Assembly: GCA_024305745.1 (NCBI GenBank)
Contig: JAHRBS010000003.1
Span: forward strand, 2,418,001-2,482,000
Source: Polyporus tsugae
Taxonomy: Eukaryota; Basidiomycota; Agaricomycetes; Polyporales; Polyporaceae
DNA: 64,000 nucleotides
Reading direction: 5' to 3'
Shown here: piece by piece, positions 1,728-50,683 of the stretch
Numbering within the stretch: the stretch's first letter is position 1
Layout: the number at the start of each line of letters is the position of its first letter
Program-made: the position numbers and the translations under genes
The notes under the pieces: generated by a model
What the model was told of the DNA's origin: nothing
What the model saw: only the letters and a program-made list of their open reading frames with translations
The model's database searches: none

Positions 1728-1773
1728 GCTATGGGTAATGCATTTCGAATTGTCGAACTGCGTTGCCCATAGC
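1728..1773. repeat. Hairpin of unit L1 (46 nt)
   Basis: Inverted repeat GCTATGGG...CCCATAGC. On the gene strand the 3' arm contains AATGCATTACCCATAGC, nearly identical to the L1 tag. It lies 227 nt from the tag. Confidence 0.85.
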
Positions 1774-1867
1774 GTTTCATTCATACGGGGTGCCTCTTCG
1801 TACCTGCCACCACGACCAAAACCATTGGAGGGAGTAGTTGGGACATATGCGTCATTGGGGAACAGAG

Positions 1868-1914
1868 GTGAGTACATCATAATTACATCTCTAGGAGGGG
1901 TAGAGAAGTGTTAG
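1868..1914 (+). other. Candidate antisense intron, unit L1 (47 nt)
   Basis: On the strand opposite the L1 gene, GAG|GTGAGTACATC forms a good splice donor and AAGTGTTAG a good acceptor exactly 47 nt apart. Units L2, R2 and R6 have an intron-like segment of the same length at the same place. Confidence 0.55.
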
Positions 1915-3941
1915 TCTTTTGGTCCTGTCCGAGGTTCTCTTGCAGCGTGGTCCCTGCATGGGCGCAATTTGCTGAGGTTGTACCGAGGGGACCTACTATG
2001 GCTGATATGGGTAATGCATTCCAAATTTGATCTTCCTGCGATGTCGAAACAGTCACGAGCTTCTTGATGGGGTCGCTCGACTGTCCCACCGCGAAGTCCG
2101 CGCCGAAGAGGAGCGACATGATGGGAAGCGGCAAAGGCTCGTAATCGTCGAAGCATCCTTCGAAGATGCGAGCCATCTCATCGTCGGGCGAGTGCAACTG
2201 CGAGGCGACGTGCCCAGATGCGTTCATCGATGGAGTTCCAGTCGCGCTGCCCCAAAATTGTGCGGAGGACAGAGGAGCTTCGACTGCGCCGTGGGCAGTG
2301 CTGCGCTGCGTGGCAGATGGGGCCTCGGCGTGGTAGTCGACGAGGGCGTGCGCGAGCTCGCTGTATGCGCTGATACTGGTGACGGCGTGCACCGACTGAA
2401 CGTGTTGTTGCACGTTCACTGTGGTCGGCGCGCCTGAGGGGTACTGGTTGGTGGGACTGGCAAGGTGCGAGGCGACGATGGGCTGCGTGACCTTGGTGTC
2501 AGTGTAGACTGGGACTGCAGAGAACTCTGCCGCTGCGAGGTGGATGGGGGTATATCCCGCGCTCAGCGCATTGAAGTGGCCGGGAGAAGAGAATTCGGCG
2601 TCGAAGGTCGCAGGCGTCGCAGACGCATAACGAGCCGTTCCAGGAGTACTAGTCGCGCGTGACTCGCCCCTCTCGACAGGGTCGCGCCACTCGTAGCGCG
2701 ATGATGCCCCAGACGGATTGGCAGCTGGTTCGCCCCACTGGTGCTTCGAGGTCCAGATGTCAGTCCCCATCGAGAATGAGGCGCACGTGGAGGCATCGGG
2801 AGGGCTGACGACGCTGGGGAGTGGATGGTGGAGGAGATTGGATGTGTTCCCAGCCGTGTTCTGGGACATGTGAACAATGTTGGGGACGACGGATGGGGCT
2901 TCCGTGTACTCTGGTCTCAGCGGTGGGGTGGCCCAGCGGTCACCACCCAAGGGACGGCGAACAATGAAATTCTTATAGGCATGGTTGGAGCAGTTCTCGC
3001 TTTGCGTGCTGCCACAGGTTGCGGACAGCCCGGGATCGAGCTGGGATGTGGTGTATGAGGACGGTGGCCTCGCACTCAGTCCTGGGCTCTGCGGCCATGT
3101 CTCCGGTAGTAGCGGCGATAAGTCTGTCGAATGGCTTCCGCGGTCTGCCTCTAGATATGGCGTGGTTATGCGAGACTCTGTAGCGTGTACGATCCGAGGT
3201 ACAACATGGAAGCCAGAGTACGCTGCGTTGTGGGCGTATTGTTCACAGATTTCCCTCGCGGCTGGCGGCCGTTGGTCGATGGGGTCGGCAGGGACCATGG
3301 ATACTGGAACCGTGGAGGGGCGCGAGTCGAATGGCCCCGGCGACACGGAGTACGAAAGAGCGTGCTGGTAGGGAAGAGATGGAGAAGGCGCACGCGTGTC
3401 GCGAGGCAACGCGCCCTGCGTGGTTGGGAGGTCGGTAATTGACGGCGGAGGGGACACGGAGAAGACGGTCATGATTGGACCGGGAAGATCAGGTGGAAAT
3501 GTGCTATTTCCAGTTGAGCAGGGCTGTCGCGACATTCAGTTTTGTTGACAGGATCCCGGGACCAACGAGAATGAACGCACCTTCCTCTTCACCGTCCTCT
3601 TGCTTGGGCCCCTGGCCTGGCCTTGCTTAGACCAGATGGCATTGGCTTTCGCCTCTTTCTTGCGCGCCTTCCGACGCACGTAGTCGTCCTTCGATTCGGG
3701 TGAGAGAGGCTCGGCCTGATCTCCAAGGTTCGGTTGCCCGTATGAGGGGCAGAACGCCATCGCCTGCCAAGCGGGTTCATACATGTGGAGAGCGAGAGAT
3801 CCGAACGCGTATGCTCACCCGCTCGTCATTCCCCACTGCTCTCCTGAGTGCAGCTGGGGGCTGATCTCTCTGTCGGAACTCGTTCAGACGGCTGTCCTTC
3901 TCGCCGTACTTCTTCGCCTTTTGCGACTTGGCGGCGACCAT
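1883..3941 (-). CDS. Array family protein L1, stop codon lost
   Basis: Three exons on the minus strand: 3941-3819, 3763-3581 and 3523-1883, introns 55 and 57 nt, both in phase 0, predicted product 648 residues. It is the mirror-image partner of R6. The start is the ATG that opens the exon 1 shared by the family (VAAKSQKAKKYGEKD). Two differences from R6 stand out. About 46-50 residues are missing in frame from the middle of exon 3. The terminal TGA of R6 is TGG here, so the frame runs on for about 35 residues through the tag, and the added tail would not be conserved. The C-terminal motif MARIFEGCFDD is present. The gene may still make protein, but the lost stop makes function uncertain. The role is unknown. 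Confidence 0.7.
2001..2030 (-). other. 3' tag of unit L1
   Basis: Gene-strand core AATGCATTACCCATATC, 16 of 17 bases identical to the 3' arm of the L1 hairpin. Because the normal stop is lost, the tag is inside the extended reading frame. Confidence 0.8.
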
Positions 3942-4074
3942 GGTTCGGAAGTTATGAATTGTCTTGGGACGAAGAGACTGAAAGCAGCGATGAGGTTCAG
4001 AGATGGAAAGTTGAGGGGGGATGGTTGTGATTGTGATTGGAGCTGGACCTTGAGACTCGAGTTCTACCCAGGGC

Positions 4075-4310
4075 CGTGTATTGAGGTCGGGACGCGACCA
4101 CCCCGGTTTACTTCTCACACACCGAACGCGTGGATCAGACAGCTTCGAAGGCACCCTGGCTACTGGCGGCACCTGGACAAAGCAATCGGCGGTGTCACGG
4201 TGCTTCCCGGATATGGACTCCGCAGACACTAGACACCTTTCGACATCAATAGCGGCCCCCCAAAGACGCCCTGATCCTAGTGTCAAAATCTAAACAATTT
4301 GTAAGTGTCG
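4075..4310 (-). promoter_or_regulatory. Conserved promoter block of unit L1
   Basis: Lies 130-370 nt upstream of the L1 start codon. It contains the family-wide segment CCGATTGCTTTGTCCAGGTG and, farther out, the motif TGACACTAGGAT. The same block stands at a similar distance before eight of the ten genes, while open reading frames across it are not kept. That favours a promoter or 5' leader. Confidence 0.6.
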
Positions 4311-4489
4311 CCCTGCGAAAACCTGTCCAAGGGATCCTTAAGGGTATGTTTGTGGTGCTGATAAACAGTGTGCAGGTTTATCGCACCGTCTCTCGAACTC
4401 GTCCGTATATTTGCTCCACAGACATGGCCTATGATATTCTACCTTTTATAATTCCCACCGGCGGATAAAACGAACAGCCTGCTTTCCAG

Positions 4490-4740
4490 GATAACCCACT
4501 CACGAAAACGCGAGAAACGCAAGCTCAATCCCCGCCGAGTGGCACCGGCCTGTTCCACGGGAAAACGCTCGCCCGTTTCCAAGAGAAGCCCTTCCTCGTC
4601 GGAGTTCCTCAGTAACTCTTTTAGGTATGCCTTGTGTTCTCGCGTAGTCACGACGAGTCGACGGCACCTTCCGCCGCACGGGCACGCTGGCACGACCGTA
4701 TGCCAGTGAATAGGCAGATCCCGAGGGCCCACAACGCAGA
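4490..4740 (-). repeat. Conserved upstream block of unit L1
   Basis: Shared with other units about 0.5-0.8 kb upstream of the gene. On the minus strand it reads REHKAYLKELLRNSDEEG, similar to the L2 reading REKNKDYLIRLLRDTDG, but in a frame interrupted elsewhere. It could be the remnant of a coding exon or a conserved upstream control region. Confidence 0.45.
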
Positions 4741-5805: not shown

Positions 5806-5851
5806 GCTATGGGTAATATGGTCTGAGGAATCAAACCCTATTGCCCATAGC
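5806..5851. repeat. Hairpin of unit L2 (46 nt)
   Basis: Inverted repeat GCTATGGG...CCCATAGC. Gene-strand 3' arm GACCATATTACCCATAGC equals the L2 tag with one mismatch. Distance to the tag is 250 nt. Confidence 0.85.
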
Positions 5852-5966
5852 ATTTCATTCATGGGCTATTCTTCAAGAACCAGAGACTGCCACTGCTACC
5901 GATACCGATGGTATTGCATGCAGTAATCGAGGCCTTTACATTGGGTCAATGGAACAGGATACAGAG

Positions 5967-6101: not shown

Positions 6102-6127
6102 TCGATATGGGTAATATGGTCAAAGTC
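6102..6127 (-). other. 3' tag of unit L2
   Basis: Gene-strand core GACCATATTACCCATATC, overlapping the stop codon TGA of the L2 gene. Confidence 0.85.
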
Positions 6128-7914
6128 GAGCTTCTTGCCACGTCGAAGTGGTGAGAAGCTGCTGGCTGGCGTCGCTTGCCTGTCCCGTCGCGAAGTCCAT
6201 GTTGAGGAGTAGCGATGAGATGTCCGACAACAAATGATCGCTGAGGGCGAAGCATTCCTGGATGATGCGAGCGCATTCCTCCTCGCTGATCGCGACGTCT
6301 TGCGGGCATGGCGGGGCGAGGAAGACTGGGCCCGGGGAGTGGACGCCTACACCGCCGTTGGAGGTGTGGATGTAGAGGGGCGTGTCAGGCTCCACAGAGG
6401 CGGTGGTACGCGAAGCTGTCGCCGAACCGTTCGCGCTGGACGGGGCGCAGTCGTCGACGAAAGCGCGGGGAGGATACTGCAGGGCCTGCGCTAGCTCCGA
6501 GTAGGAGCTCAGTGGAGTGGGCAGAGACGGGTGCATGTCGCCCTCGTAGGTCCACGTCGCGGGCGGCGCGAGGGGAGGGTATTGGATTTGGGCGTCGTGT
6601 CTGTCGTTCGCGCCGCTCTCCATTTCGTACGATCCCTCGCGATCGACATGCTCTACTCCAGCCGGCCAGATGACAGATTGGTCGCCCGCAGGCTGGGTCG
6701 CGTAAGATGACACCGGGGCCACGTCGCCAGGACCTTGCTCTGTCATCCCGTGGTTGGAGGATCCGCCGACGGCGTTGTCGATGGCCGCGAACTCGGTGGG
6801 ATGCGCCTGAGGAACAGGTCCGTCGTGCGCCGGGTGCGGCGTGTCGGCGTAGTGTTCGCTCAGTGCTTGGCTGGTCAGGTGATGACTGTCGGAGGAAGAA
6901 TGGACAGCGAAGCCGTAGTAGACAGGGTTGCAGTGTCCCACGCCGTCCTGTGCGGTCAACAGTCCAGGATCGAGCTGGGACGCACTATGGACGGACGGCG
7001 GCGTCACGGTCACTCCCCGGCTCTCAGCCTGTACCGCGAGAGGCGACGGCGATGAGCACATCGAAGGGCTTCCGTTGTTCGTCTGCGGATCGGGCCTGGC
7101 TGCGGGCGAATACGCGATATATGCGTTGTCTACTGCATATGTCGCGTCTGGGCTGGAGCTCCGGCCGACGGTAGTGGCGTGGGGGGGCTGCGATCCGACG
7201 TGGAGGCTAGTGTGGTATGCGTCCACGGTGTGCCGCTCATATGCACCCGTCGGGGCCTGTGGCTGATAATAGGCTGGGCCGGGGACAGTGTACGCGGGTG
7301 AGGTCGGCGGGTGCTGGTCAACTGGCGTTACCGGGGTGGGGGGGTCGTAGATCGACCACTCGTGGTAGTACGCCGCTTGAGGGACCGATGCGGTGTGCGC
7401 GGGCTCGTCGCTGGGTGTGGTTGGGTCCGTGAGCGCAGGTGGTGCAGTCGTCGGGGTGGTGGCAGCGCCTGCCAAAGCGGGCGGCAGTGTGCCACCGGAT
7501 GAGGAGGACTATAACAACGGTATGCGCGCCCTGTCAGTGGCATGCTGAGGTAGTCGAAGAGTGAAACTCACGTTCTTCCTCCCCTGAGCCCTCTTTCTCA
7601 CAGAACCTCGGGCCTGACCTTTGTCACCACCCTCAGACCGAGTCGCATTTGCCTTTGCCTTTGCCTTTGCCTCCCGCTCGCGCGCTTTCCGACGGACGTA
7701 GTTCAGCCTGTTCGCCCGTGGGAGAGGCCCAGCCTGACCGCCAAATGGTGTTCCGTATACGGGACAACAGGCCCTCAACTACCAAGCCGGTTCAGATATC
7801 TCGACCTCCACATGGAGAAATGGGTATGCTCACCTTTACATCATTTCCCACCTGTTTTCGGAGGGCAGGCGGGAGACGATGCTTCTGGCGGAGCGCGTCC
7901 TCGCCGCTTACCAT
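6120..7914 (-). CDS. Array family protein L2, intact
   Basis: Exons 7914-7834, 7778-7572 and 7508-6120, introns 55 and 63 nt, phase 0, 558 residues. Exon 1 is the short 27-codon form (VSGEDALRQKHRLPPALRK). Exon 2 begins LRACCPVYG and carries YVRRKAREREAKAKAK, a basic run built partly from GCAAAG repeats, likely helical and possibly nuclear-targeting. Exon 3 is rich in Pro, Ser, Thr, Tyr and Asp, and ends with SYSELAQALQYPP and ISEEECARIIQECF followed by LLSDISSLLLNMDFATGQ. There is no signal peptide or membrane segment. The sequence is a mosaic: its first half follows R3, its middle R5 and its C-terminal part R4. Function is unknown. Confidence 0.8.
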
Positions 7915-9571: not shown

Positions 9572-9618
9572 GCTATGGGTGAGGAAGATTGAATCTTTCA
9601 AGCTTCTGTACCCATAGC
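9572..9618. repeat. Hairpin of unit L3 (47 nt)
   Basis: Inverted repeat GCTATGGG...CCCATAGC. Gene-strand 3' arm AATCTTCCTCACCCATAGC matches the L3 tag at 16 of 19 positions. Its flank (AAACCATCCAAGTACGAC) identifies the second R2 hairpin at 34589 as its mirror copy. Confidence 0.8.
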
Positions 9619-9890: not shown

Positions 9891-9920
9891 TTGATATGGG
9901 TGGGGAAGACCAAATTCAGC
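9891..9920 (-). other. 3' tag of unit L3
   Basis: Gene-strand core GGTCTTCCCCACCCATATC, about 40-65 nt after the natural stop codon of L3. Confidence 0.75.
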
Positions 9921-9956
9921 TAGTAGGATCGTCCTGCGGGGGGCCGGACGGTGATC

Positions 9957-11768
9957 CTACTGGTACGTGTCGTGACCCTGTCGGGCCGTCGCAAGGTCCA
10001 TGTCGAGGAGTAGCGACGAGATTTGCAACAGCAAGCGCTCATTATCGTCGAAGCACTCCTGGAAGATGCGAGCGCAATCCTCCTCGCTGATAGGGATGTT
10101 TGCTGGGTACGGCTGAGCGAAGGGGACCTGGCCTGGGGAGTAGATGCTCGAACCAATGCCAGAGGGATGAACGTCCAAGGACGGTGCGGTGGTACGGGGA
10201 GTTGTCGCTTGGCCGTCCGTGCTCCGAGTCAACGACGCGTAGCTGTCGGTGAAACATTCGGGAGGGTACTGCAGGGCCTGTGCGAGCTCCTAGTACGAGC
10301 TCTGTCGAGTGGGCAGAGATGGGTGGATGTCGTAGGTCGCCGCCGGCGCCACGGGAGGGGACTCGACTGAGAAGTCTTGCATGTATGCGTATACGTCGTT
10401 CGTGGCGCTCTCGACGTGGTCCGATCGCTCACGATCGGCATGCGCAGCAACAGCAGGCGGGGTGGACCAGACGTTGGGTTCGCTGCCTTCAGGCTGGGCC
10501 ACATAGGCTGGGTCAGACACTTGGCCTATGCCGCGAGGATCTTGCTCTGCGGTGCCATGGCCCGCGGTCGTTCCGAAGGTGTTGGCGATGGAGGTGGTCG
10601 CCGTTGAATAGGCCGGAGGCGCGGGCTCACCGTTCACCCCCTGCGGCGTGTCGGTGTAGTACGCGCTAAGCACTGGAGCCAGCACTTGACTGCTGGAGTG
10701 GTGGTTGTCCAAGGAATGACGGACAAAAAAGTCCTGGTAAACGGTGTTGAAGGACTGCGCACTCCTTCCGCTGTCCTGCGCCGCCGACACAGCTGGATTG
10801 AACCCGGACACGATGTGCGCGGACGGCGGCGCCATGTTCACTCCTGGGTTCTCCGACCAGAATGCTGGTGGCGGCGGTGACCAGCCCGTCGAAGGGGTCC
10901 CGTGGTCTATCTCCAGATCCGGTGTGGTTGCGGGAGAGTGGGCGGCGTAGTAGGCGTTGCCCGCCACATACGTCGAGTCTGGGCTGGGGCTAGGCGAGAC
11001 GGTGGTGGCGGATGGGGATGGCCATTGGACCTGGACGTTGGAGTAGTCTGCGGCGTGCTGCTCATGCACGTCCGTCGGTGCTGGTGGTGGATAGTAGGAG
11101 GGGTCATCGACGGTGTCCGCCGGTGCCGTAGAGAGATGTTGGTCGACCGGCATTGGCGGGGCGGGGGGGTCGAAGATGGACCAGGTATGGTACGCCCCTT
11201 GAAGTTGAGGGGCCGATGCAGTGGGCGCAGGCTCGCCACTGGCCATCACTGTCGTCGAGGGGTGGAGGACGGTCGTGGCGTCGGAGAAAATAGGTGGCAG
11301 AGTGCGACTTGAAGGCGACTGTCGCAACGGCATGTCGGTCTTGTCAGTCGATGCTGAGGTGATTGTGGAGTGAAACTCACGCTCTTCCTCCCTTTCGCCT
11401 GTTTTCTCGTCGCACCCTTGGCCGGGCCCCTGCTTCCGCCAACACCAGACCCCATCTGCTTTGCACCGGCCTCTTTCGCCTCCTTCTCGCGCTCTTTCCG
11501 AAGCAGGTACAACCGCTCCGCCTCCGGCGAGAGAGGCTTGGCCTGACGTCCCAGCTCGAACATCCCGTATGATGGAAAGAGGTTGAGAAACTACCAAGAG
11601 GGTTGAGATGTGTTGACATTGAGAAGGAGAAATGGGCACACTCACCTTCTCGTCATCCCCGACCATTTCCCTGATTTTAGGTGGGGGTCTATTTTTCTGT
11701 CGGAGCCGGTCCACACCGGATCTGGTCTTGACACTCTTCTTTACTTTGAGGGACTTCTTGGAGACCAT
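9957..11768 (-). pseudogene. Array family gene L3, interrupted by a nonsense codon
   Basis: Exons 11768-11646, 11590-11381 and 11318-9957, introns 55 and 62 nt, phase 0. It is a near-identical inverted copy of R2. In the conserved SYSELAQALQYPP segment the Ser codon TCG of R2 is TAG here (10292-10290), so translation stops after about 453 residues and the acidic C-terminal segment is lost. The same frame then stays open to the natural stop at 9957, so the nonsense change is probably recent. The region near the last codons differs from R2: L3 would end DLATARQGHDTYQ and R2 ends EFATGE. That is exactly where the tag also differs. Confidence 0.85.
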
Positions 11769-11924
11769 TGGGATGGGGAGTGGAGTGGGTTGGGATGGGT
11801 GAATAAGTGATAGAGCGATGAGGTTTGTTGAAGGGGGCGGAGTGGGGATGGTTCAAGGAGTGGTGGTTGGAGTTGGACTTACGACGAACGCTCAACGTTG
11901 AAATACAGATTTTGGGCAAGGCTG

Positions 11925-12744: not shown

Positions 12745-12790
12745 GCTATGGGTACTGTATTTCGAACTGTCGAACTACATTGCCCATAGC
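12745..12790. repeat. Hairpin of unit L4 (46 nt)
   Basis: Inverted repeat GCTATGGG...CCCATAGC. Gene-strand 3' arm GAAATACAGTACCCATAGC equals the L4 tag with one mismatch. Confidence 0.85.
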
Positions 12791-13011: not shown

Positions 13012-13040
13012 GGCTGATATGGGTACTGTATTTCAATCCT
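13012..13040 (-). other. 3' tag of unit L4
   Basis: Gene-strand core GAAATACAGTACCCATATC, overlapping the ancestral stop TGA at 13035-13033. Confidence 0.8.
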
Positions 13041-15077
13041 GAGCTTCAGGCGACATTGAAGTGGCCAAGAGCTGCTGGTCGAGGTTGCTCGACTGTCCCG
13101 TCGCGAAGTCTGCGCCGAGAAGTAGCGACATGATGGGAGACGCCACCTCTGATTTGCGGGATGTATAGCGGCGTCCCCTGACCAGCGCTGGCCTGCGTGG
13201 CGGATGGAGTCCCCGCGTAGTGATCAACGAGGGCGTGCGCGAGCTCACTGTATGTGCTGATGGATGTGCGCGTTGGATGAGTGTGTTGTTGCGCATCCGT
13301 CGTGGTCGGTGCACCCAAGGAATGCTGGTTGACGAGCGGCGCGGACGTCGTGTATGTGATCGGAGGAGCGCCGACGTGGCCGGTGTGTGCGTGCGATGAT
13401 GGGGTCCTTGTCGAGACGTGGTGCCCGTTGTTGGGCGGGATATGGGCCTGGATGGCGGATACGTCATGCTGCTGGACTTGATGCGACGCGGCGGTAGCGA
13501 GGGGCGGCGCGACCACGTCATGAGCGTATCTGGCGCCAGCGGAGAGCTCTACGGTCGCGAGAGACTGGTCGAGGCCCGCGTGGCCCGCGCTGGACCCAAT
13601 GGAATGGCTGGGACAAGGGCCTTGGTTAAGCTGACGGTCGAAGCTCGTGGGTGTCGCACATGCAGGACCATCCACTCTAGGAGCACCGATGATGCTTGAT
13701 CGGGCCCTACTGGTAGACTCGCGCCACTGGTAGTCCGACAATGCTCCGTACGCAGCGGTGGCTTGTTCCTCTTGAGACTCCGAGTGGCGCCCCTGGTGTG
13801 GTGTCGAGGTCCAGATGGCCGTCCTGCCCGTCTCCACTGAGGTTGAATCGCGCACGCGGAAATCGGGAGAGCTCATGACTGTAGGAGGGGAAGGGACAGG
13901 ATGGAAGGGGCAATCGGGCATGCTCGCCACAGTATTCCAGGACCTGCAATGAGCAGTGATGGGGACGACCGGTGGGGCATTCGCGTGTTCCTCCCCCAGC
14001 ACCGGAACGGGCGATTCGTGGCCGCCCGACGAATGACGAACGAAAGATTGATGGTAAACATGGAAGCGGTCCTCGCTTCGTGCACCACCTTGTGCTGCTG
14101 ACGGCTGGGCCGCCGTGTAAGAGGACGGTGGTGTCATACTCGGTGCTGGGCTCTCAGCCCATGCCCACAGTGGCGGTGGGGGCGGCGACTGATTCGTCGA
14201 AGGGCTTCCGCGGTACGAATCCAGTGACGGCGTGGTTACAGGAGAAGCTGCGGTGCAAACATTGTCCACCATGTATGGACCATGGCTCGGTGCGAGGGCT
14301 GTGGCGTGTGCAGCATAGAAGCCGGAGTACGCTGTGTTGTGGGCACGGTGCTCAGAGACTCCCGTCGCGGCCGGTAGCGGTTGGTAGATGCAACAGATCG
14401 AGCGGGAACGGGAGATGGGGTCAGGCTCCCTGGATGCCGGAGCCGTAAAGGGGCGCGAGTCCAATGGCCTCGGCAGCATCGAGTACGAGAGAGCGGGCCG
14501 GGGAAGATATGGAGAAGGCCCGTGCGTGTCGCGAGGCAACGCGGCGTGCCAGTGCGTGGTTGAAGGTTGCAGAACTGGCGGCGGAGGGGTCACGAAGAAC
14601 ACAGTCATGATTGGACCGGGGAGATCAGGTGGAAATGTGTGATTCCCAGTTGAACAGGGCTGTCGCAACATTCAGTTTTGTTGGCAGGATCCCGGGACCA
14701 ACGAGAATGAACGCACCTTCCTCTTCACCGTCCTCTTTCTCGGGCCCTTGGCCTGGCCTTGCTTAGACCGAATAGCCTGCGCCTTGGCCTCTTTCTCGCG
14801 TGCTTTCCGACGCACGTAGTCGTCCTTCGAATCGGGTGAGAGAGGCTTAGCCTGGTCCCCAAGGTTCTCCTGCCCGTATGAGGGGCACAGCGCCATCAAC
14901 TGCCAAACAGGTTCATACATGTCGAGAGCGAGAGATAAAAACGTGTATGCTCACCTCCTCATCGTTCCCCACTGCTCTCTTGAGTGCAACGGGGGGCTGA
15001 TGTTTCTGCCCGAACTCCTTGAGACGGGCATCCTTCTCGCCGTACTTCTTTGCCTTTCGAGACTGCGTGACTGTCAT
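13033..15077 (-). pseudogene. Array family gene L4, 3' deletion and frameshift
   Basis: Exons 15077-14955, 14899-14717 and 14659-13046, introns 55 and 57 nt, phase 0. The type is that of L1/R6 (exon 2 LCPSYGQENLGDQ and YVRRKAREKEAKAQ). Near 13150 a deletion removes the segment that in R6 encodes MARIFEGCFDD and shifts the frame. The open frame ends at 13046 with an unrelated tail, whereas the ancestral frame (SLLLGADFATGQSS) resumes and ends at 13033. A product of about 639 residues could be made, without the normal C-terminus. Confidence 0.75.
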
Positions 15078-30298: not shown

Positions 30299-30318
30299 TT
30301 ATACTCTACCTATATTCA
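30294..30318 (+). other. 3' tag of unit R1
   Basis: TAATTATACTCTACCTATA at the last stop codon. The hairpin arm reads TAATCTATACCCTACCTATA. Confidence 0.75.
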
Positions 30319-30644: not shown

Positions 30645-30688
30645 GCTATGGGCAGGGTATAGATGCTAATCTATACCCTACCTATAAC
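30645..30688. repeat. Hairpin of unit R1 (44 nt)
   Basis: GCTATGGG...ACCTATAAC, with the uninterrupted inner stem GGGTATAGAT/ATCTATACCC. The 3' arm repeats the R1 tag, 327 nt upstream, although the gene itself is decayed. Confidence 0.8.
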
Positions 30689-31940: not shown

Positions 31941-32068
31941 GTTGAGCGTTCGTCGTAAGTCCAACTCCAACCACCACTCCTTGAACCATCCCCACTCCGC
32001 CCCCTTCAACAAACCTCATCGCTCTATCACTTATTCACCCATCCCAACCCACTCCACTCCCCATCCCA

Positions 32069-33900: not shown

Positions 33901-33934
33901 AATCCGAGTTATATTACCTATATAAACCACCGAA
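33901..33934 (+). other. 3' tag of unit R2
   Basis: GAGTTATATTACCTATATA, about 70-100 nt after the stop. It matches the first R2 hairpin (AAGTTATCTTACCTATAGC), with similarity continuing to ACC...CCGAA. It does not match the L3 tag, although the genes are nearly identical. Confidence 0.8.
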
Positions 33935-34146: not shown

Positions 34147-34192
34147 GCTATGGGCAAGAGAGCTTGACATTCCAAGTTATCTTACCTATAGC
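34147..34192. repeat. First hairpin of unit R2 (46 nt)
   Basis: GCTATGGG...ACCTATAGC. The 3' arm repeats the R2 tag 213 nt upstream. Confidence 0.85.
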
Positions 34193-34588: not shown

Positions 34589-34634
34589 GCTATGGGTAAG
34601 AAGTTTGATAATTTCAAGCTTCCTTACCCATAGC
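34589..34634. repeat. Second hairpin of unit R2 (46 nt)
   Basis: GCTATGGGTAAG...CTTACCCATAGC, a 12-bp perfect outer stem. Arm and flank resemble the L3 hairpin, not the R2 tag. It is the only extra hairpin in the window. Confidence 0.85.
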
Positions 34635-36225: not shown

Positions 36226-38042
36226 ATGGTAAGCGGCGAGGACGCGCTCCGCCAGAAGCATCGTCTCCCGCCTGCCCTCCGAAAACAGGTGGGCAACGAC
36301 GCAAAGGTGAGCAAACCCATTTCTCCATGTGGAGGTCGAGATATCTGAACCCGCTTCGTAGTTGAGGGCCCACTGTCCGGTATACGGGACACCATTTGGC
36401 GGTCAAGCTGGGCCTCTCCCACGGGCGAACAAGCTGAACTACGTCCGTCGGAAGGAGCGCGAGCGGGAGGCAAAGGCAAAGGCAAAGGCAAAGGCAAGTC
36501 GGTCTGAGGGTGGTGACAAAGGTCAGGCCCGAGGTTCTGTGAGAAAGAGGGCTCAGGGGAGGAAGAACGTGAGTTTCATTTTTTGACTACCTCGGCACGC
36601 CACTGACAGGAAGCGCATACCGTCGTTATAGTCCTCAGCATCCGGTGGCACACTGCCGCCCGCTTTGGCAGGCGCTGCCACCACCCCGACGACTGCACCA
36701 CCACCTGCGCTCACGGACCCAACCACACCCAGCGACGAGCGCGCGCACACCGCATCGGTCCCTCAAGTGGTGTACTACCACTCGTGGTCCATCTACGACC
36801 CCCTCACCCCGGGAACGCCAGTTGACCAACATCCCCCGACCGCACCCGCGTACACTGTCCCCGACACAGCATATTATCAGCCACGGGCCCCGACTGGTGC
36901 ATATGAGCAGTACACCGTGGGCGCGTACAACTCGAGCCTCCACGTCGGATCGCAGCCCCCCCACGCCACTACCGTCGGCCCGAGCTCCAGCCCAGACGCG
37001 ACGTATGCAGGAGCCAACGCATATACCACGTACTCGCCCGCAGCCATGCCCGATCCGCAGACGAACAACGGAAGCCCTTCGATGTGCTCATCGCCGTCGC
37101 CTCTCGCGGTACAGGCTGAGAGCCGGGGAGCGAGCGTGACGCCACCGTCCGTCCACATTGCGTCTCAGCTCGATCCTGAACTATTGACCGCACAGCACAG
37201 CGCGGACCACTTCAATGCTGCCTACCAGGACTTCTTTATCCGTTCTTCCTCCGACAGTCATCGCTCGACCAGTCAGGCACTGGCCCCGTCGCTGAGCCGC
37301 CACTACGCCGATACGCCGCAGCTGGCGCACGACGGACCTGTTCCTCAGGTGCACCCTACTGAGTTCGCGGCCGCCGCCAACGCCTTCAGTGGAGCCTCTA
37401 CTCACGGGACGACAGAGCAAGATTTTTCCAAAGTCGGCCCAGTGTCCACGACCCACCCTGAAAGCGACCAACCTGTTGTCTGGTACGCACCACCCGCTGG
37501 AGTAGGGCATGTCGATCGCGAGGGATCGTACAACATGGAGAGCGGCGCGAACGACGGACACGACGTCCAAATCCCATACTCTCCCATCGCGCCGCCCGCG
37601 ACATCTACCTACGACATGCACCCGTCTCCACCCACTCCGCAGAGCTCGTACTCGGAGCTGGCGCAGGCCCTGCAGTTCTCTCCCCGCATGTTCACCCACG
37701 ACTGCGGCCCGTCTAGCGGGGAATGGTTTGGAGACAGCTCCGCGTACCACTGTCTCTGCAGTGCCTGACATGGCCCTCTACACCCAGTCCTCTAACGGCG
37801 GTGTGGGCATTCACTCCCCAGACATAGTCTTCCTCACTCCGGTGTACCCGGAAGACGTCATGATCAGCGAGGACGAATGTGTTCGCATCATCCAGGAGTG
37901 CTTCGACTATAGCGATCGTTTGTTATCGGAAATCAGGCTACTCCTCAGCCGGAGGGACGTCGCTACAGGACAGGGAGGCGACCGCATGTATCCCCAGAAT
38001 AGTCACCCAGCTCCCTGGGCGACCCAACACAGCAGCTCCTGA
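36226..38042 (+). pseudogene. Array family gene R3, frameshifted
   Basis: Exons 36226-36306, 36362-36568 and 36632 onward, introns 55 and 63 nt, phase 0. It is close to L2 and R5 in exons 1 and 2 (LRAHCPVYG, YVRRKERERE and an Ala-Lys run from GCAAAG repeats). In exon 3, near 37720 (CCGTCTAGCGGGGAATGG, against CCGTCCAGGCGGGACGG in R5), an indel shifts the frame. The open frame ends at 37768 after about 474 residues. The conserved end (ISEDECVRIIQECFDYSD) continues in another frame to 38042. The central segment is nearly the same as in R4. Confidence 0.8.
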
Positions 38043-38066
38043 TCACATTAATGTGGTCATGAGCTC

Positions 38067-38092
38067 GATGAACCTTGACACACATATCAACC
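38067..38092 (+). other. 3' tag of unit R3
   Basis: GAACCTTGACACACATATC, 25-50 nt after the terminal TGA. Hairpin arm GAACTTTGACACACATAGC. Confidence 0.85.
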
Positions 38093-38337: not shown

Positions 38338-38383
38338 GCTATGTGCAACAAAGTTTACAACTGTGAACTTTGACACACATAGC
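38338..38383. repeat. Hairpin of unit R3 (46 nt)
   Basis: GCTATGTG...CACATAGC. Here even the otherwise constant GGG/CCC is changed to GTG/CAC on both arms, and the tag shows the same change (CACATATC). Confidence 0.88.
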
Positions 38384-39897: not shown

Positions 39898-42041
39898 ATG
39901 GTCGGGCAGTTCACTGGCAACACGCCCCTCACCGGCCATAATATCCAAGGCCACTCGGTGAGCGCGGTCCTTGTGAGAGAGGTGCCCGAGGAAGTGGTGA
40001 GATTCTATTCGTCCTACAAAGCATATACAATGACTCATTTGCAACACAGTTATCGACCTCAGTCACCCACTACGGAACACAAGGGCTGTTTGGAGAGCCG
40101 ACGCAAAGGACGGTCAAACATGATCGGGACAACGAGCGTAGGCGGAAGTGGAGGGCGACGCAGTCATCGAAGCGGAAGGCAAAGCTGAACAAGAAGGCTC
40201 AGTTTGAGGGGGTCTCTGGGGGAAGTGTAAGCCAAGCCGCAATAACACGCACAGTGGTGAGTTACTTACCTACTCTGATACAGGTCGGCGAAGCCAGGGG
40301 AGCCCCGACATTACCCCCCAATGCTCACGAACTCGGGCATACGTCCGGCCACTGGCAGGGGATATCTGATTCCCATCCTCCCCTTCTCCATGGATCTCCC
40401 CTTCCCAGTCCGCTCGTCCTTGGATCGAGCCCTTCTCCCAGCATCGTAAGCTCTCCCTCCTCGCAAGAGGGCACCACTCCCAGTGCGAATACAAATACGC
40501 CTCTTGCACAAGGCCAGCTGCTTCGTGAGTGGACCCCGTACTCGCTCCCCGATGCCCCGAGTGGCGCTCCAACGTTCAACCATGCACCCACGACATCTGC
40601 GACCCCTGGAGGAGGCCGCCACAACGAGCTCTCTTGTCCCGCTCACGTAACTGGGCCGGGGAGGGGATGTCCCTGCTTTAGCACAGACGTCTGCGCCGCC
40701 GCATCCCGCACCGACAGCCCCAACTCTTCGCAGTACGACGGGCCTATAGATCAGGGCCACACGCGTCCGACCTACAACGAGTACGCAACGTGGACGGCAG
40801 GGAACTCTCCTGGCAGCCATGGATGCGAAAATTTCGTCGGTTTCCCTCCCATCGCATATCATACCTCTACGGCGTTCGTCACCGACTTCGACCAGTACCA
40901 CATGGGTATGCACGACGTGCGCTATTCCGGTGCCCATCTCCAACCACCGTCCCCGTATGTCACTACTGGTGCGCTAAACTCTAGCCCAGACGCGACCTAT
41001 GTGGCGGACGACTCCACCAAACACTTTCACGCAACCACACCCGGTCTGGAGACGGACCACGGGGGCCGCTCGACGACCTCGTCGCAGCCACCACCGACGT
41101 TCTGGTCTGAGAGCCCAGAGGCCTTGAACGCGCCGCCACCGTCCGCCTACACCACGTCCGGGTTCGGTCCGGACTTGTCGACCGCGCAGGAGAACGGAAG
41201 GAGCGCGAACCACTTCAATGCTGCCTACCAGGACTTCTTTGTCCGTTCTTCCTCGGACAGTCATCGCTCGACTGGTCAAGCACTGACCCCGTCGCTGAGC
41301 CGCCACTACGCCGATACGCCGCAGCTGGCGCACGACGGACCTGTTCCTCAGGCGCATCCTACTGAGTTCGTGGCCGCCGCCAACGCCTTTGGTGGAGCCT
41401 CTACTCACGGGACGACAGAGCAAGATTTTGCCAACGCCGGCCCTGTATCCACGATTCACCCTGAGAGTGACCAACCTGTTGTCTGGTACGCACCGCCTGC
41501 TGTCGTAGCGCATGTCGATCGTGAGCGATCGTACGACATCGAGAGGGGCGCGAACGACGGATGCGAGGCCCAAATCCACTACCCTGCCCTCGCGCCACCC
41601 GCGACGTCGACCTACGAAGGCGACATGCACTCGTCTCCGCCCACTCCGCAGAGCTCGTACTCGGAGCTGGCGCAGGCCCTGCAGTATCCTCCCCGCGCCT
41701 TCATCGACGACCGCGCCCCGTCCAGCGCGAACGGTTCGGCAACAGCTTCGCGTACCATCGCCTCTGCGGAGCTTGACACGCCCCTCTACATCTACACCTC
41801 CAACGGCGGTGTAGGTGTCCACTCCCCGGGCCTAGTCTTCCTCGCCCCACCATGCTCGCAAGATGTCGCAATCAGCGAGGAGGAATGCGCTCGCATCATC
41901 CAGGAATGCTTCGACTACAGCGATCATCTGTTGTCCGATATCTCGTCACTACTCCTCGACATGGACTTCGCGACTGGACAGTCGAGCGATGTCAGCCAGG
42001 AGCTCCTGACTAACTCTACGTGGACAGAAGCATCCATCTGA
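39898..42041 (+). CDS. Array family protein R4, intact and chimeric
   Basis: Exons 39898-39996, 40050-40226 and 40284-42041, introns 53 and 57 nt, phase 0, 677 residues. Exons 1 and 2 are of the R1 type (FTGNTPLTGHNIQGHSV, then LSTSVTHYGTQGLFGE and the basic DRDNERRRKWRATQSSKRK). The second half of exon 3 is of the L2/R3/R5 type (SSDSHRSTGQALTPSLSRHY, SYSELAQALQYPP, ISEEECARIIQECFDYSD). The gene thus joins an R1-type 5' end to an R3-type body, presumably by recombination, with all frames kept. Like its relatives it has no signal peptide or membrane span. Function is unknown. Confidence 0.8.
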
Positions 42042-42062
42042 ACTGAACAACCCATATCAACC
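42036..42062 (+). other. 3' tag of unit R4
   Basis: GAACTGAACAACCCATATC, overlapping the stop codon. Hairpin arm AAACTGTACAACCCATAGC. Confidence 0.85.
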
Positions 42063-42312: not shown

Positions 42313-42358
42313 GCTATGGATTATACAGGTTGTCCATCCAAACTGTACAACCCATAGC
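42313..42358. repeat. Hairpin of unit R4 (46 nt)
   Basis: GCTATGG...CCCATAGC with inner ACAGGTTG/CAAACTGT pairing. 251 nt from the tag. Confidence 0.85.
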
Positions 42359-44165: not shown

Positions 44166-45942
44166 ATGGCAAGCGGCGAGGATGAACTACGGCAGAAACA
44201 TCGACTGCCACCTGCCCTCCGAAAACAGGTGGGCAACGACGAAAAGGTGAGCATACCCATTTCTCCATGTGGAGGTCGATATATCTGAACCCGCTCGGCA
44301 GTTGAGGGCCCACTGTCCCGTTTACGGTACGGCGTTTGGCGGTCAGGCTGGGCCTCTCCCACGGGCGAACAGGCTGAACTACGTCCGTCGGAAAGAGCGC
44401 GAGCGGGAGGCAAAGGCAAAGGCAAAGGCAAAGGCGAGTCGGTCTGGGGGTGGTGACAAAGGTCAGGCTGGAGGTTCTGTGAGACAGAGGGCTCAGGGGA
44501 GGAAGAACGTGAGTTTCATTCTTTGACTACCTCAGCATGCCACTGACAGGGCGCGCATACCGTTGTTATAGTCCTCCTCATCCGGTGGCACACTGCCGCC
44601 CGCTTTGGCAGGCGCTGCCACCACCCCGACGACTGCACCACCTGCTCTCACGGACCCAACCACACCCAGCGACGAGTGCGCGCACACCGCATCGGTCCCT
44701 CAAGCGGCGTACTACCACGAGTGGTCGATCTACGATCCCCCCACCCCGGTAACGCACGTTGACCAACATCCCCCGACCCCACCCGCGTACACTGTCCCGG
44801 ACCCAGACTATTATCAGCCACCGATCCCAACAGGTGCGTATGAGCAGTCTACCAGGGGCGCACACAACTTCGGCCTCCACGTCGGATTGCAGGCCCCGCA
44901 CGCCGCTACTGTCGGGCCCAGCTCTAGCCCAGATGCGACGTACATGGTCGGCAACGTCTACGCCGCAACCTGTCCCACAACCACCCACGGTCTGGAAATA
45001 GACAACGGAAGCCCCTCGACAGGCTCACCGCCGGCGGTCTGGTCTGAGAGTGCGGACTGGGTGAGCACGACGCCACCATCCGCTCCCATCGGGTCCCAGC
45101 TCGATCCTGAACTGTTGACCGCACAGGACGGCATGGGCCACTTCAATCCTGTCTACCACGGCCTATCTGTCCGTTCTTCTTCGGACAGTCATTACTCGAC
45201 CAGCCAAGGGCTGAGCGAGCACTACGCCGACACGCCACACCCGGCGCACGACGGACCTGTTCCTCAGGCCCATCCTACCGAGTTCGCGGCCATCGACAAC
45301 GCCGTCGGCGCATCCTCCAACCACGGGACGACAGAGCAAGGTCCTGGCGAGGCTCACGCGACCCAGCCTGCTGGCGACCAATCTGTCGTCTGGCCGGCTG
45401 GAGTAGGGCATGTCGATCGCGAGGGGTTGTACGACATAGAGAGCGGCGCGAACGACGGACACGATGTCCAAACCCCATACTCTCCCATCGCGCCGCCCAC
45501 GACGCCTACCTACGGCATGCACCCGTCTCCACCCACTCCGCAGAGCTCGTACTCGGAGCTGGCGCAGGCCCTGCAGTTCTCTCCCCGCATGTTCACCCAC
45601 GACTGCGGCCCGTCCAGGCGGGACGGTTCGGGGACAGCTCCGCATATCACCCCCTCTGCAGTGCCTGACATGCCCCGCTACATCCACACCTCCAACGGCG
45701 ATGTGGGCATCCCCTCCCAGGGCCCAGTCGTCTTCACCCCGCCGTACCCGCAAGACGTAATTATCAGCGAGGACGAATGCGCTCGCATCATTCAGGAGTG
45801 CTTCGACTATAGCGAGCCCTTGTTGTCAGAGATCTCATCGCTACTCTCCACCCTAAGGGCAGACTCCTTCGCGACAGGACAAGCACGCGATGCCAACCAG
45901 CAGCTTCTGACCACTTGGATGTGGCAAGAAGCTCGCGTTTGA
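44166..45942 (+). CDS. Array family protein R5, intact
   Basis: Exons 44166-44246, 44302-44508 and 44572-45942, introns 55 and 63 nt, phase 0, 552 residues. The short exon 1 (ASGEDELRQKHRLPPALRK) and exon 2 (LRAHCPVYG, YVRRKERERE, Ala-Lys run) mark the L2/R3/R5 type. The C-terminal segment ISEDECARIIQECFDYSE is followed by LLSEISSLL and a short insertion before DSFATGQARD. The C-terminal third agrees with R3, the middle (HPTEFAAIDNAVG) with L2. The spacer after the gene is shared in inverted orientation with the region after L2. Function is unknown. Confidence 0.8.
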
Positions 45943-45962
45943 CCGTATTACCCATATCGACC
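45936..45962 (+). other. 3' tag of unit R5
   Basis: GACCGTATTACCCATATC, starting inside the stop codon. Hairpin arm GACCGTATTACCCATAAC. Confidence 0.88.
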
Positions 45963-46213: not shown

Positions 46214-46260
46214 TGCTATGGGCAATAAGGTTTGACGTTTCAGACCGTATTACCCATAAC
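46214..46260. repeat. Hairpin of unit R5 (47 nt)
   Basis: GCTATGGGCAATA...TATTACCCATAAC. 251 nt from the tag, whose core it repeats with one mismatch. Confidence 0.85.
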
Positions 46261-47770: not shown

Positions 47771-47914
47771 ATATCATAGACCATGTCTGTGAAGCAAATG
47801 TACGGACGAGTTCGAGAGACGGTGCGATAAACCTGCACACTGTTTATCAGCACCACAAACATACCCTTAAGGAGCCCTTGGACAGGCTTTCGCAGGGCGA
47901 CACTTACAAATTGT

Positions 47915-48180
47915 TTAGATTTTGACACTAGGATCAGGGCGTCTTTGGGGGCCCGCTATTGATGTCGAAGTGTGTCTAGTGTCTGCGGAGTCCATATCCG
48001 GGAAGCACCGTGACACCGCCGATTGCTTTGTCCAGGTGCCGCCAGTATCCAGGGTCTCTTCGAAGCTGTCTGATACACGCGTTCGGTGTGTGAGAAGTAA
48101 ACCGGGGTGGTCGCGTCTCGACCTCAATCCACGAACTCTGCTTTGGGTCCGAGTCGGACGGGGACGACCCTGGGTAGAAC
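47915..48180 (+). promoter_or_regulatory. Conserved promoter block of unit R6
   Basis: TGACACTAGGAT at about 47924 and CCGATTGCTTTGTCCAGGTG at about 48019, some 280 nt before the ATG. Confidence 0.6.
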
Positions 48181-48298
48181 TTGAGTCTTAAGGTCCAACT
48201 CCAACCATAACCACATCCATCCCCACTCAGCTTTCCGTCTCTCAGCCTCATCGCTGCGTTCCGTCTCTTCGTCCCAGAACAATCATAACTTCCAAACC

Positions 48299-50369
48299 AT
48301 GGTCGCCGCCAAGTCGCAAAAGGCGACGAAGTATGGCGAGAAGGACAGCCGTCTGAACGAGTTCCGACAGAGAGATCAGCCCCCAGCTGCATTCAGGAGA
48401 GCAGTGGGGAATGACGAGCAGGTGAGCATACGCGTTCGAATCTCTCGCTCTCCACATGTATGAACCCGCTTGGCAGGCGATGTCGTTCTGCCCCTCATAC
48501 GGGCAACCGAACCTTGGAGATCAGGCCGAGCCTCTCCCACCCGAATCGAAGGACGACTACGTGCGTCGGAAGGCGCGCAAGAAAGAGGCCAAAGACAAGG
48601 CCATGTGGTCTAAGCAAGGCCAGGCCAGGGGCCCGAGCAAGAGGACGGTGAAGAGGAAGGTGCGTTCATTCTCGTTGGTCCCATGATCCTGCCAACAAAA
48701 CTGAATGTCGCGACAGCCCTGCTCAACAGGGAATCGCACATTTCCACCTGATCTTCCCGGTCCAATCATGACCGTCTTCTCCGTGTCCCCTCCGCCGCCA
48801 ATTACCCACCTTCCAACCACGCAGGGCGCGTTGCCTCGCGACACGCGTGCGCCTTCTCCATCTCTTCCCTGCCAGCACGCTCTTTCGTACTCCGTGTCGC
48901 CGGGGCCATTCGACTCGCGCCCCTCCATGGTTCCAGTATCCATGGTCCCCGCCGATCCCATCGACCAACGGCCGCCAGCCACGAGGGAAATCTGTGAGCA
49001 ATACGCCCACAACGCAGCGTACTCTGGCTTCCATGTTGTACCTCGGATCGTACACGCTACAGAGTCTCGCATAACCACGCCATATCTAGAGGCAGACCGC
49101 GGAAGCCATTCGACAGACCTATCGCCGCTACTACCGGAGACATGGCCGCAGAGCCCAGGACCGAGTGCGAGGCCACCGTCCTCATACATCACGTCCCAGC
49201 TCGATCTCGGGCTGTCCGCAACCTGTGGCAACACGCAAAGCGAGAACTGCTCCAACCATGCCTACAAGAATTTCGTTGTTCGCCGTCCCTTGGGTTGTGA
49301 CCGCTGGGCCACCCCACCGCTGAGACCAGAGTACACGGAAGCCCCATCCGTCGTCCCTAACTACATGTCCCAGAACACGGCTGGGAACACGTCCAATCTC
49401 CTCCACCATCCACCCCCCAGCATCATCAGCCCTTCCGATGCCTCCACGTGCGCCTCATTCTCGATGGGGACTGATATCTGGACCTCGAAGAACCAGTGGG
49501 GCGAACCAGCTGCCAATCCGTCCGGAGCATCATCGCGCTACGAATGGCACGACCCTGTCGGGAGGGGCAAGTCGCGCGCGACTAGTACTCCTGGAACGGA
49601 TCGTTATGGGTCTGCGACGCCTGCGACCTTCGACGCCGAATTCTCTTCTCCTGGCCACTTCAATGCGTTGAGCGTGGGATATACCCGCCCCATCCACCTC
49701 GCAACGGCAGAGTTCTCTGTAGTCCCAGTCTACGCTGACGCCGAGGTCACACAGCCCATCGTCGCCCCCATATCGCATCAAATTCTACAATACAACGTAT
49801 CCGCCCACCCGGCCCGTACGCCGCTCAACAACGGGTACGGCGTCTCGACGAGGAGCTCGCCCTCGTACGCCCACTTCCGCCACGTCCGCGCCGCTCCAAC
49901 TACATACGCGATAACGCCCTCGCGCCTTGCCAGTCCCACCAACCAGCACCCCTCGGGGGTGCCGACCACGGCGAACATGCAACAAGACGTTCAGTCTGCG
50001 CGCATCGTCACCAGAATCAGCGAATACAGCGAGCTCGCGCACGCCCTCGTCGACTACCACGCCGAGGCTCCACCCGCCACGCAGCCCAGCGCTGCCCACG
50101 GCGCTGTCGAAGCCCCTCTGTCCTCCCCACAATTTTGGGGCAACGCGATTGGAACTCTGACGACAAACGCCTCTGGGCACGTCGCCTCGCAGTTGGAATC
50201 GCCCGACGATGAGATGGCTCGCATCTTCGAAGGGTGCTTCGACGATTGCGAGCCTTTGCCGCTTCCCATCGTGTCGCTCCTCTTCGGCGCGGACTTCGCA
50301 GCGGGACAGTCGAGCGACGCAAGCCAGCACCTGTTGACCACTTCGACGTGGCAGGAAGCTCAAGTTTGA
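48299..50369 (+). CDS. Array family protein R6, intact reference member
   Basis: Exons 48299-48421, 48477-48659 and 48717-50369, introns 55 and 57 nt, phase 0, 652 residues. Domains in order: residues 1-41, basic start (VAAKSQKATKYGEKD) ending AVGNDE; residues 42-102, FCPSYGQPNLGDQAEPL, then YVRRKARKKEAKDKA and a Lys/Arg-rich end, probably helical and suited to nucleic-acid binding or nuclear import; about 103-560, disordered and rich in Pro, Ser, Thr, Tyr and His; about 560-652, ELAHALVDYHAEA, MARIFEGCFDD, SLLFGADFAAGQSSD and a final TSTWQEAQV. The AVGNDE and CPSYG parts meet across intron 1 in every copy, so the module was split before the family expanded. I do not recognise the family. A nuclear regulatory or self-recognition role is conjecture only. 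Confidence 0.82.
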
Positions 50370-50389
50370 AATTACCACCCATATCAACC
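50363..50389 (+). other. 3' tag of unit R6
   Basis: TTGAAATTACCACCCATATC, starting within the stop codon. Hairpin arm GAAATATACCACCCATAGC. Confidence 0.85.
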
Positions 50390-50481
50390 ACCTTATGTTT
50401 ACCCCCCAAAACAAGCTGAACAAATTGCGCCCACGCACTGGGGATCGAGCTGAAGGTGAAGCCTCGACCTCGACGCAAGGG

Positions 50482-50528
50482 CTAGCATTTCTCCGCTGCT
50501 CCTATAGATATGTTTTTGATGTACTCAC
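50482..50528 (-). other. Candidate antisense intron, unit R6 (47 nt)
   Basis: Minus-strand donor GAG|GTGAGTACATC and acceptor AAATGCTAG. Confidence 0.55.
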
Positions 50529-50637
50529 CTCTATCATCCTACTCCGGTAGGCTCAATGATGCACCAGTCCCAATTACACACTCCAATGGCCTGGGTCTTC
50601 GTGGTAGTTACCAAGAGGTACCCCGCATGAATGAACC

Positions 50638-50683
50638 GCTATGGGCAATACAGTTCAACAGTTTGAAATATACCACCCATAGC
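50638..50683. repeat. Hairpin of unit R6 (46 nt)
   Basis: GCTATGGG...CCCATAGC, 249 nt after the tag. The 3' arm keeps the tag well, while the 5' arm has more mismatches. Confidence 0.82.

Follow-up and report, generated by a model that had tools for sequence, protein, structure and literature searches.

Tag and hairpin pairs in a Polyporus tsugae gene array point to a private antisense microRNA-like gene for each paralogue

Organization of the array

A stretch of 64,000 nucleotides (nt) of the Polyporus tsugae genome (the window; C17:2418001-2482000 of a 43.2-Mb, 18-contig genome) contains an array of genes, in each of which a short sequence at the gene's end (the tag) is repeated in the 3' arm of an inverted repeat (the hairpin) a few hundred nucleotides further on. 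An earlier note on this DNA had proposed that this arrangement is present in all ten units of the window, and it was found in 10/10, including L3 and R6 (50362-50683), which stand beyond the eight pairs that had been listed. The properties of these pairs make it very likely that each array gene is paired with its own microRNA (miRNA)-like gene, whose guide of about 22 nt, derived from the antisense strand, silences that gene. All counts come from one genome and from units related by duplication, so that they do not represent independent events, and the folds and energies are predicted.

Six further units with tag and hairpin lie left of the window, and 16 units were analysed (X2-X4, LL2-LL4, L1-L4 and R1-R6, the last ten of these being in the window). 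A scan under relaxed criteria, covering 184 kb around the window, gave 18 hairpins across C17:2342182-2468683, 16 of them with a tag upstream whose anchor lies 115-372 nt from that of the arm, and the exact pattern GCTATGGGN{18,46}CCCATAGC occurred at 12 places genome-wide, all within the same interval (controls, 0). The ten units of the earlier note thus stand as part of a larger set, since the array reaches further left and is joined by an orphan hairpin (R2b), a hairpin relic and a dispersed copy. The claim that hairpin length and spacing are almost fixed held, as the core measures 46 nt in 8/10 window units, 47 nt in L3 and 44 nt in R1, with 224-330 nt between the end of the tag and the hairpin core; the hairpin ends GCTATGGG...CCCATAGC are near-invariant. 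The tag of X1 is weak and gapped (-25.1 kcal/mol) and lies in a plus-strand frame. Scanning the window against Rfam at gathering score returned 0 matches.

Most units belong to one family of genes with short 5' exons that encode low-complexity proteins of about 450-700 amino acids, and the open frames beside R1 and X1 gave no BLASTP match to other array members at E 0.001. Within this genome the family was found at the C17 locus and in one distant piece on contig C16 (counts are lower bounds), and X4 shares 33-36% protein identity with array members. Ratios of nonsynonymous to synonymous substitution (dN/dS) of 0.52-0.77 in nine paralogue pairs indicate that the array genes are coding and loosely constrained. 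Between L1 and R6, identity is approximately 96% in much of the gene body but falls to 72-74% in the region of the tag and 79-84% in that of the hairpin, so that the 3' modules either diverge faster than the bodies or are exchanged. The stop codon lies inside the tag in 8/16 units (LL4, LL3, L2, L4, R1, R4, R5 and R6, the frame there being taken as the gene's), and in X3 and X4 the tag is coding, with a stop codon ending 51 nt past it.

Each tag matches the hairpin of its own unit

For each 3' half-hairpin, the best local match in the flanking 3 kb on each side was taken as the tag, a procedure that favours own pairs. Across the variable 15 nt of the 16 units, tag and 3' arm were identical at 176/240 positions within units, compared with a permuted mean of 92.4 (sd 8.7), and 0/100,000 permutations reached the observed value, confirming that tag and hairpin change together; kinship between units works against this comparison. 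The choice of tags by best match is controlled for by two results, as in 16/16 units no other site scanned (4-nt steps over 1 kb upstream of the hairpin) paired with the guide as well as the own tag did, and in 16/16 the own tag also beat 20/20 shuffles of itself. The tag sites stand at a nearly constant place relative to the hairpin. RNAduplex analysis gave mean guide:tag energies of -28.9 kcal/mol for own pairs, -13.0 kcal/mol for non-own pairs and -20.4 kcal/mol for the best non-own pair; the own guide was the best for its tag in 16/16 units, and the own tag the best for its guide in 16/16. The proposed addressing code between paralogues is borne out in so far as own pairs are the best in every row and every column.

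The orientation of the match differs from that proposed in the earlier note, in which the 5' arm was regarded as roughly antisense to the end of its own gene. The tag matches the 3' arm at 288/352 positions and the complement of the 5' arm at 213/352. As it is the 3' arm that the tag matches, the sequence antisense to a tag is the other strand of that arm, which is the 5' arm of a hairpin transcribed from the antisense strand. The proposal of a gene-specific small RNA is strongly supported, but with the RNA predicted to come from the opposite strand and arm. The predicted guide starts with UAUGGGU in 13/16 units, UAUAGGU in R1 and R2, and UAUGUGU in R3, and this shared start followed by a private remainder implies a code that keeps paralogues apart. 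In L2 and R5 (5806-5851 and 46215-46260) guide nt 12 and the facing star base have exchanged letters (U facing C versus C facing U), and the tag follows the guide base at nt 12.

The hairpin pairs best as antisense RNA

The strand on which the hairpin folds was read from the pairing of its stem. On the gene strand the aligned stem positions (cells) of the 16 units comprise 327 Watson-Crick pairs, 67 A:C (G:U in the antisense RNA), 16 G:U and 38 others. In matched 17-sequence alignments (425 cells; X1 left out), 91.8% of cells were paired in the antisense RNA and 76.9% in the sense RNA. The antisense fold, a stem of approximately 30 bp with a small loop, was the more stable in 16/18 hairpins as scored, with a mean difference of -6.1 kcal/mol, the exceptions being X3 and X1; the score of X1 assumed a gene on the minus strand, and when referred to its plus-strand gene this hairpin agrees, giving 17/18. 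Likewise X1, which stood outside the covariance model, scored 39.1 bits antisense and 26.2 bits sense relative to the plus-strand gene. Two-sided changes were present in 13/25 antisense pairs and 46 cells, compared with shuffled means of 7.9 and 13.8 (sd 3.0 for cells; 0/500 shuffles for each), and structures slid along the antisense alignment paired only 34.8-41.7% of cells. A hairpin whose pairing is kept by two-sided changes, as expected of a precursor of fungal microRNA-like RNAs (milRNAs), is thus present. Because covariation is alike on both strands, the assignment of strand rests on pairing percentage, folding energy and type of wobble.

Footprint of a predicted guide of about 22 nt

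Identity between tag and arm was then counted along the predicted guide in the 16 units, allowing one gap and numbering from the U that faces the last A of CCCATA. Identity was 16/16 at each of guide nt 1-8, 13 at nt 9-10, 15 at nt 11-15, 13 at nt 16, 15 at nt 19, 13 at nt 20-21, 10 at nt 22, 6 at nt 23 and 3 at nt 24, and the adjoining base outside the match (+1) was identical in 0/16. Guide nt 19-23, which lie at the loop, are still unit-specific (57/80 identical, compared with 42.8 when permuted within families, sd 3.5, P = 1e-4), and nt 24-27 are at background (10/64, P = 0.48). The 42 substitutions in nt 1-22 comprise 21 that preserve G:U pairing with an antisense guide, 7 opposite transitions and 14 transversions. 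A guide of approximately 22 nt that came from the antisense hairpin's 5' arm and extended into the loop would leave this footprint. Pairing on the antisense strand, covariation of the stem, private complementarity over 22 nt and the direction of guide:target wobble can all be read directly from the DNA, and a complementary target, as expected of a milRNA, is present at sequence level.

Copies elsewhere and possible exchange of modules

A copy that was not used to build the case bears the same signature. This place on contig C16 (L054, C16:2019401-2020900) is a decayed, dispersed copy of the 3' end of an X-like gene, which has a private tag of its own and a hairpin in partial decay; it was met by protein search, and the tag and decayed hairpin were recognised on reading 1.5 kb. 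The pattern ACCCATAT...ACCCATAG, with gaps of 257-287 and 288-318 set from the spacing of known units, occurred at 5 + 5 places genome-wide (controls, 1 + 1), of which nine were units already known and one was the C16 copy; the pattern thus served to confirm this place, not to discover it. The C16 guide pairs with its own tag at -28.2 kcal/mol, whereas the other 16 guides reach -5.8 to -20.9 on the C16 tag and the C16 guide reaches at best -19.4 on other tags; its fold is -34.1 antisense and -24.0 sense. The covariance model also found a degenerate hairpin relic (L037:6018-6091; 18.6 bits, E 0.0099), with no recognisable tag in the 1.5 kb searched.

The orphan R2b (34589-34634) has no tag, its best matches within 3 kb being the arms of the neighbouring R2 hairpin, and its flanks are similar to those of the L3 hairpin. 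The L3 gene is approximately 94% like the R2 gene, yet the R2 gene bears a different tag and hairpin module, and modules may have been swapped between genes in this case. The array (1376-50976) consists of inverted arms with very patchy identity, which suggests repeated conversion or exchange between the arms.

Feature coordinates

Table 1. Hairpins, predicted targets and genes of the ten array units, with the orphan hairpin (window positions)
Feature	Position	Strand	Remarks
L1 hairpin core	1728..1773	+ (antisense to - strand gene)	guide source 1730-1751
L1 tag (predicted 22-nt target)	2006..2027	-	
L1 array gene, large exon	1883..3535	-	frame reads through tag, stops 124 nt beyond
L2 hairpin core	5806..5851	+	guide source 5808-5829
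L2 tag	6106..6127	-	overlaps stop codon
L2 array gene, large exon	6120..7508	-	
L3 hairpin core	9572..9618	+	guide source 9574-9595
L3 tag	9895..9916	-	
L3 array gene	10290..11852	-	frame broken towards 3' end
L4 hairpin core	12745..12790	+	guide source 12747-12768
L4 tag	13018..13039	-	overlaps stop codon of frame carrying the family's C-terminal part
L4 array gene, large exon	13046..14671	-	frame shifts near 3' end
R1 hairpin core	30645..30688	-	guide source 30665-30686
R1 tag	30293..30314	+	overlaps stop codon of open frame 29690-30295
R2 hairpin core	34147..34192	-	guide source 34169-34190
R2 tag	33901..33922	+	
R2 array gene	31985..33829	+	frame stops before tag
R2b orphan hairpin	34589..34634	-	
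R3 hairpin core	38338..38383	-	guide source 38360-38381
R3 tag	38065..38086	+	
R3 array gene	36632..37765	+	frame broken
R4 hairpin core	42313..42358	-	guide source 42335-42356
R4 tag	42035..42056	+	overlaps stop codon
R4 array gene	39942..42041	+	
R5 hairpin core	46215..46260	-	guide source 46237-46258
R5 tag	45935..45956	+	overlaps stop codon
R5 array gene, large exon	44572..45942	+	
R6 hairpin core	50638..50683	-	guide source 50660-50681
R6 tag	50362..50383	+	overlaps stop codon
R6 array gene, large exon	48705..50369	+	

Array proteins and neighbouring features

Relatives of the array proteins were found in Ganoderma only (P0001, P0002 and P0004 of G. leucocontextum and P0003 of G. adspersum), each protein search having scored about 8000 candidates (those sharing most words), and a profile search of proteins returned P0004 alone. 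There was no usable Pfam match for the array proteins scanned. AlphaFold2 modelling of P0004 gave a mean predicted local distance difference test (pLDDT) score of 40.7, with two helices and the remainder mostly of low confidence. Residues 395-415 of P0002 gave a sub-threshold BH3-like Pfam match (E 0.0083, 16.4 bits against a cut-off of 25) that is probably due to chance. An HMG-box-like N-terminal region had been guessed at; it was unsupported by Pfam, and a sequence search of the Protein Data Bank (PDB) gave one match, with E 0.45. The locus was also considered as a B mating-type locus and rejected, as the 27 STE3 matches listed are all on contig C3; the cluster of STE3 receptor matches at C3:1680443-1732148 is probably the B mating-type region of this genome.

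A protein-kinase fragment (Pkinase, 5e-17) is located at 24874-25524, and diverged partial copies of the neighbouring frame 25584-26951 occur at 151-875 and beyond the left edge of the window. The hexamer repeat AGGCAA/TTTGCC is present at 7648-7672, 36468-36497 and 44408-44435, equivalent sites upstream of the large exons of L2, R3 and R5. One 42-nt core was seen in at least five places by a fuzzy, non-exhaustive search.

Discussion

A proposed guide from the antisense strand

The following pathway would account for the paired tags and hairpins. A convergent transcript, antisense to the array gene, would fold into a hairpin of approximately 30 bp with a small loop, and its 5' arm would yield a guide of about 22 nt that consists mostly of 5'-UAUGGGU and about 15 private letters. 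An Argonaute carrying this guide would then recognise the mRNA of the adjoining array gene by its tag, which lies at the stop codon or shortly past it (within the last codons in X3 and X4), and silencing would follow; transcription, processing to about 22 nt, Argonaute loading and silencing are the steps that we infer. The guide may perhaps be cut in the manner of miR-451, by slicing and trimming, which is suggested more weakly, by the extension of guide and tag identity into the loop. Vertebrate pre-mir-451 is a 42-nt hairpin matured by Ago2 slicing (PMC3919586), and by this analogy Dicer-independent maturation is a possibility here rather than a result. Argonaute- and Dicer-type domains are encoded in the genome, as indicated by Piwi matches on C6, C7, C8, C11 and C13 and by paired RNase III matches on C2 and C7, with weaker ones on C13. 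In 12/13 non-X units the hairpin core starts 131-212 nt from an antisense splice-donor-like sequence, GGTGAGTA; variants are GGTGCGTA in L3 and GGTACGT in X4, and no such site was found in X2 and X3. In 10/13 non-X units a YAG follows the donor-like site by 41-53 nt (78-79 nt in LL3 and L3, none in R1), which is weak evidence because YAG is common by chance.

Alternative explanations

Several other readings of the paired sequences were weighed against this one. The antisense hairpin may act intact, as a structured antisense RNA on its own mRNA and without Argonaute, which would suit both the convergent layout implied by an antisense hairpin and the antisense splice-donor-like site; however, a transcript reaching the end of the gene would already be fully complementary to the tag, and a separate private 22-nt copy in the hairpin points instead to a small diffusible guide with fixed ends, making the intact RNA an improbable agent. 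The RNA switch raised in the earlier note, in which arms and tag compete for pairing within one transcript, could operate in the sense mRNA, where the 5' arm would pair with either the tag or the 3' arm, or in the antisense RNA, where the 3p arm would pair with either the 5p arm or the tag antisense, and the three segments could indeed share one transcript at a fairly constant spacing. The energies speak against both variants, as the mean duplex energies are -16.3 kcal/mol for the antisense switch and -15.3 kcal/mol for the sense switch, compared with -28.9 kcal/mol for guide:tag, which is lowest in 16/16 units, and the non-standard cells number 104, 97 and 39 of 352, respectively. Moreover, tag identity runs on into the loop, where the hairpin offers no rival partner, and a switch of either kind is highly unlikely.

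Even less credence is given to a DNA-level element at the gene ends, be it a protein-binding palindrome, a recombination site or the terminal repeat of a miniature inverted-repeat transposable element (MITE). The near-invariant ends, the 44-47-nt core in the window and the position of the units in inverted duplications of patchy identity would all be in keeping with such an element. The symmetry of DNA predicts no strand preference, whereas pairing is biased to the antisense strand, and this bias disfavours the binding or recombination site suggested previously; in a terminal repeat the tag and the complement of the 5' arm should match best, and they match worse than the tag and the 3' arm (213 against 288 of 352). 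An equally slight probability is assigned to a neutral history, in which tag and arm are functionless duplicates kept alike by recent duplication or gene conversion, as duplication and patchy identity at the locus might lead one to expect. The architecture is common to branches that are about a third identical in protein, so the split of tag and arm should predate the splits between units, and within-unit identity nonetheless exceeds between-unit identity. The identity also ends sharply, at the +1 base and at nt 24-27, and conversion alone gives neither the 21:7 direction of wobble nor the strand bias. The earlier note had named recent local duplication as an explanation of each pair that would undo its own proposal, and for these reasons duplication is unlikely to explain the pairs.

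A number of observations weigh against the antisense guide itself. By column the wobble bias is weaker, with 13 columns leaning to antisense, 6 to sense and 1 tied; most of the wobble cells come from a few columns, and the units are related to one another. In X3 the sense fold is the more stable, two-sided changes in the sense alignment (13 pairs; 43 cells) likewise exceed those in its shuffles (14.6 cells), as must be so for any covarying stem, and the C to T change at guide nt 4 of R1 and R2 breaks a pair in the antisense hairpin and fits the sense RNA. An antisense frame is open across the hairpin in 11/16 units, as a coding explanation of the hairpin would have it, and in the other 5 there is none. 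Within the footprint, guide nt 17 and 18 are identical in only 7/16 and 8/16 units. R2b and the L037 relic are hairpins without a tag, and the covariance model fails to recognise the C16 hairpin (best 4.3 bits). Finally, frames are broken or end early in L3, L4, R2, R3, LL2 and LL3, and that of L1 reads through, with tag and hairpin pairs still kept.

Relation to known systems

The layout has partial parallels. In plant MIRNA genes that arose by inverted duplication of their target, both arms resemble that target, and these genes are generally single loci acting on families, unlike the array described here, which has one hairpin per paralogue. Hairpin RNAs (hpRNAs) of Drosophila are long inverted repeats that produce many small interfering RNAs (siRNAs) and lie mostly apart from their targets; here the folds have a stem of about 30 bp, a single guide is implied and the hairpin adjoins its private predicted target. 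In bacterial type I toxin-antitoxin systems a small convergent antisense RNA lies beside its own protein gene and pairs with the 3' region of that gene. The present units resemble these at sequence level, in the complementarity of a predicted antisense RNA to its own neighbouring protein gene, and differ in belonging to a eukaryote and in having a hairpin and probably an Argonaute-type guide; toxicity of the proteins is a supposition.

Fungal milRNAs, in the parts of the literature considered, show a preference for 5' U and origin from one arm, with at least four production routes involving Dicers, QDE-2 and QIP (PMC3547838), and 63 milRNAs of 18-25 nt, with U the commonest 5' base, were described in Ganoderma sinense, for which libraries of mycelium and of fruiting bodies exist (PMC4457147). 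The predicted guides are like these (Neurospora milR-1 to -4 and those of G. sinense) in their short hairpin precursor, in the one arm that would be preferred and in their initial U. They are unlike them in coming from an array of 16 hairpins, every one of which is antisense to the gene beside it and specific for that gene, guide and target having changed in step. The Drosophila hpRNAs Nmy and Tmy, which act against Dox, resemble their targets and are said to co-evolve with them (PMC10317233), and the array hairpins likewise resemble and change with the genes they would target. In Teosinte Pollen Drive, hairpin-derived 22-nt siRNAs kill pollen via a linked responder gene (PMC11390486); hairpin-derived RNAs of 22 nt are predicted here too, but each hairpin matches its own neighbour, the selfish system is that of teosinte, and harm is a supposition in the case of the array. 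An array of gene-adjacent private hairpins is not described in the abstract or in three Results sections of PMC9757828, nor was the arrangement found in titles, the beginnings of abstracts and parts of papers on fungal milRNAs, Ganoderma small RNAs, hairpin RNAs, type I toxin-antitoxin systems and pre-miR-451.

Possible role and significance

What the private codes are for is a matter of speculation. They could allow every paralogue to be controlled separately, without cross-silencing. A private code would be superfluous for plain dosage control, and it might serve either copy-by-copy regulation or selfish pairs in which the gene is a poison and the hairpin its RNA antidote. The latter role is attractive by analogy with hairpin-RNA and drive systems, as far as these are covered in the parts of PMC10317233 and PMC11390486 considered. 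In its fullest form, which we regard as rather unlikely, the array would be a eukaryotic counterpart of a type I toxin-antitoxin array, with harmful or self-recognising proteins, private linked RNA antidotes antisense to the stop-codon region, and a code whose diversification stops any copy or haplotype from protecting against another, resulting in nonself recognition or meiotic drive.

If each array gene is indeed silenced by its own antisense guide, this one locus would hold 16 guide and target pairs that evolve in parallel. Their history would be a natural experiment on how a small-RNA regulator and its target stay matched while diverging, and would show at each guide position what is tolerated in the way of mismatches, wobbles and bulges. 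The array would represent paralogue-by-paralogue self-silencing in a fungus and might reveal an RNA-antidote selfish system, and fungal hairpin RNAs could be tested directly for function with small-RNA libraries.

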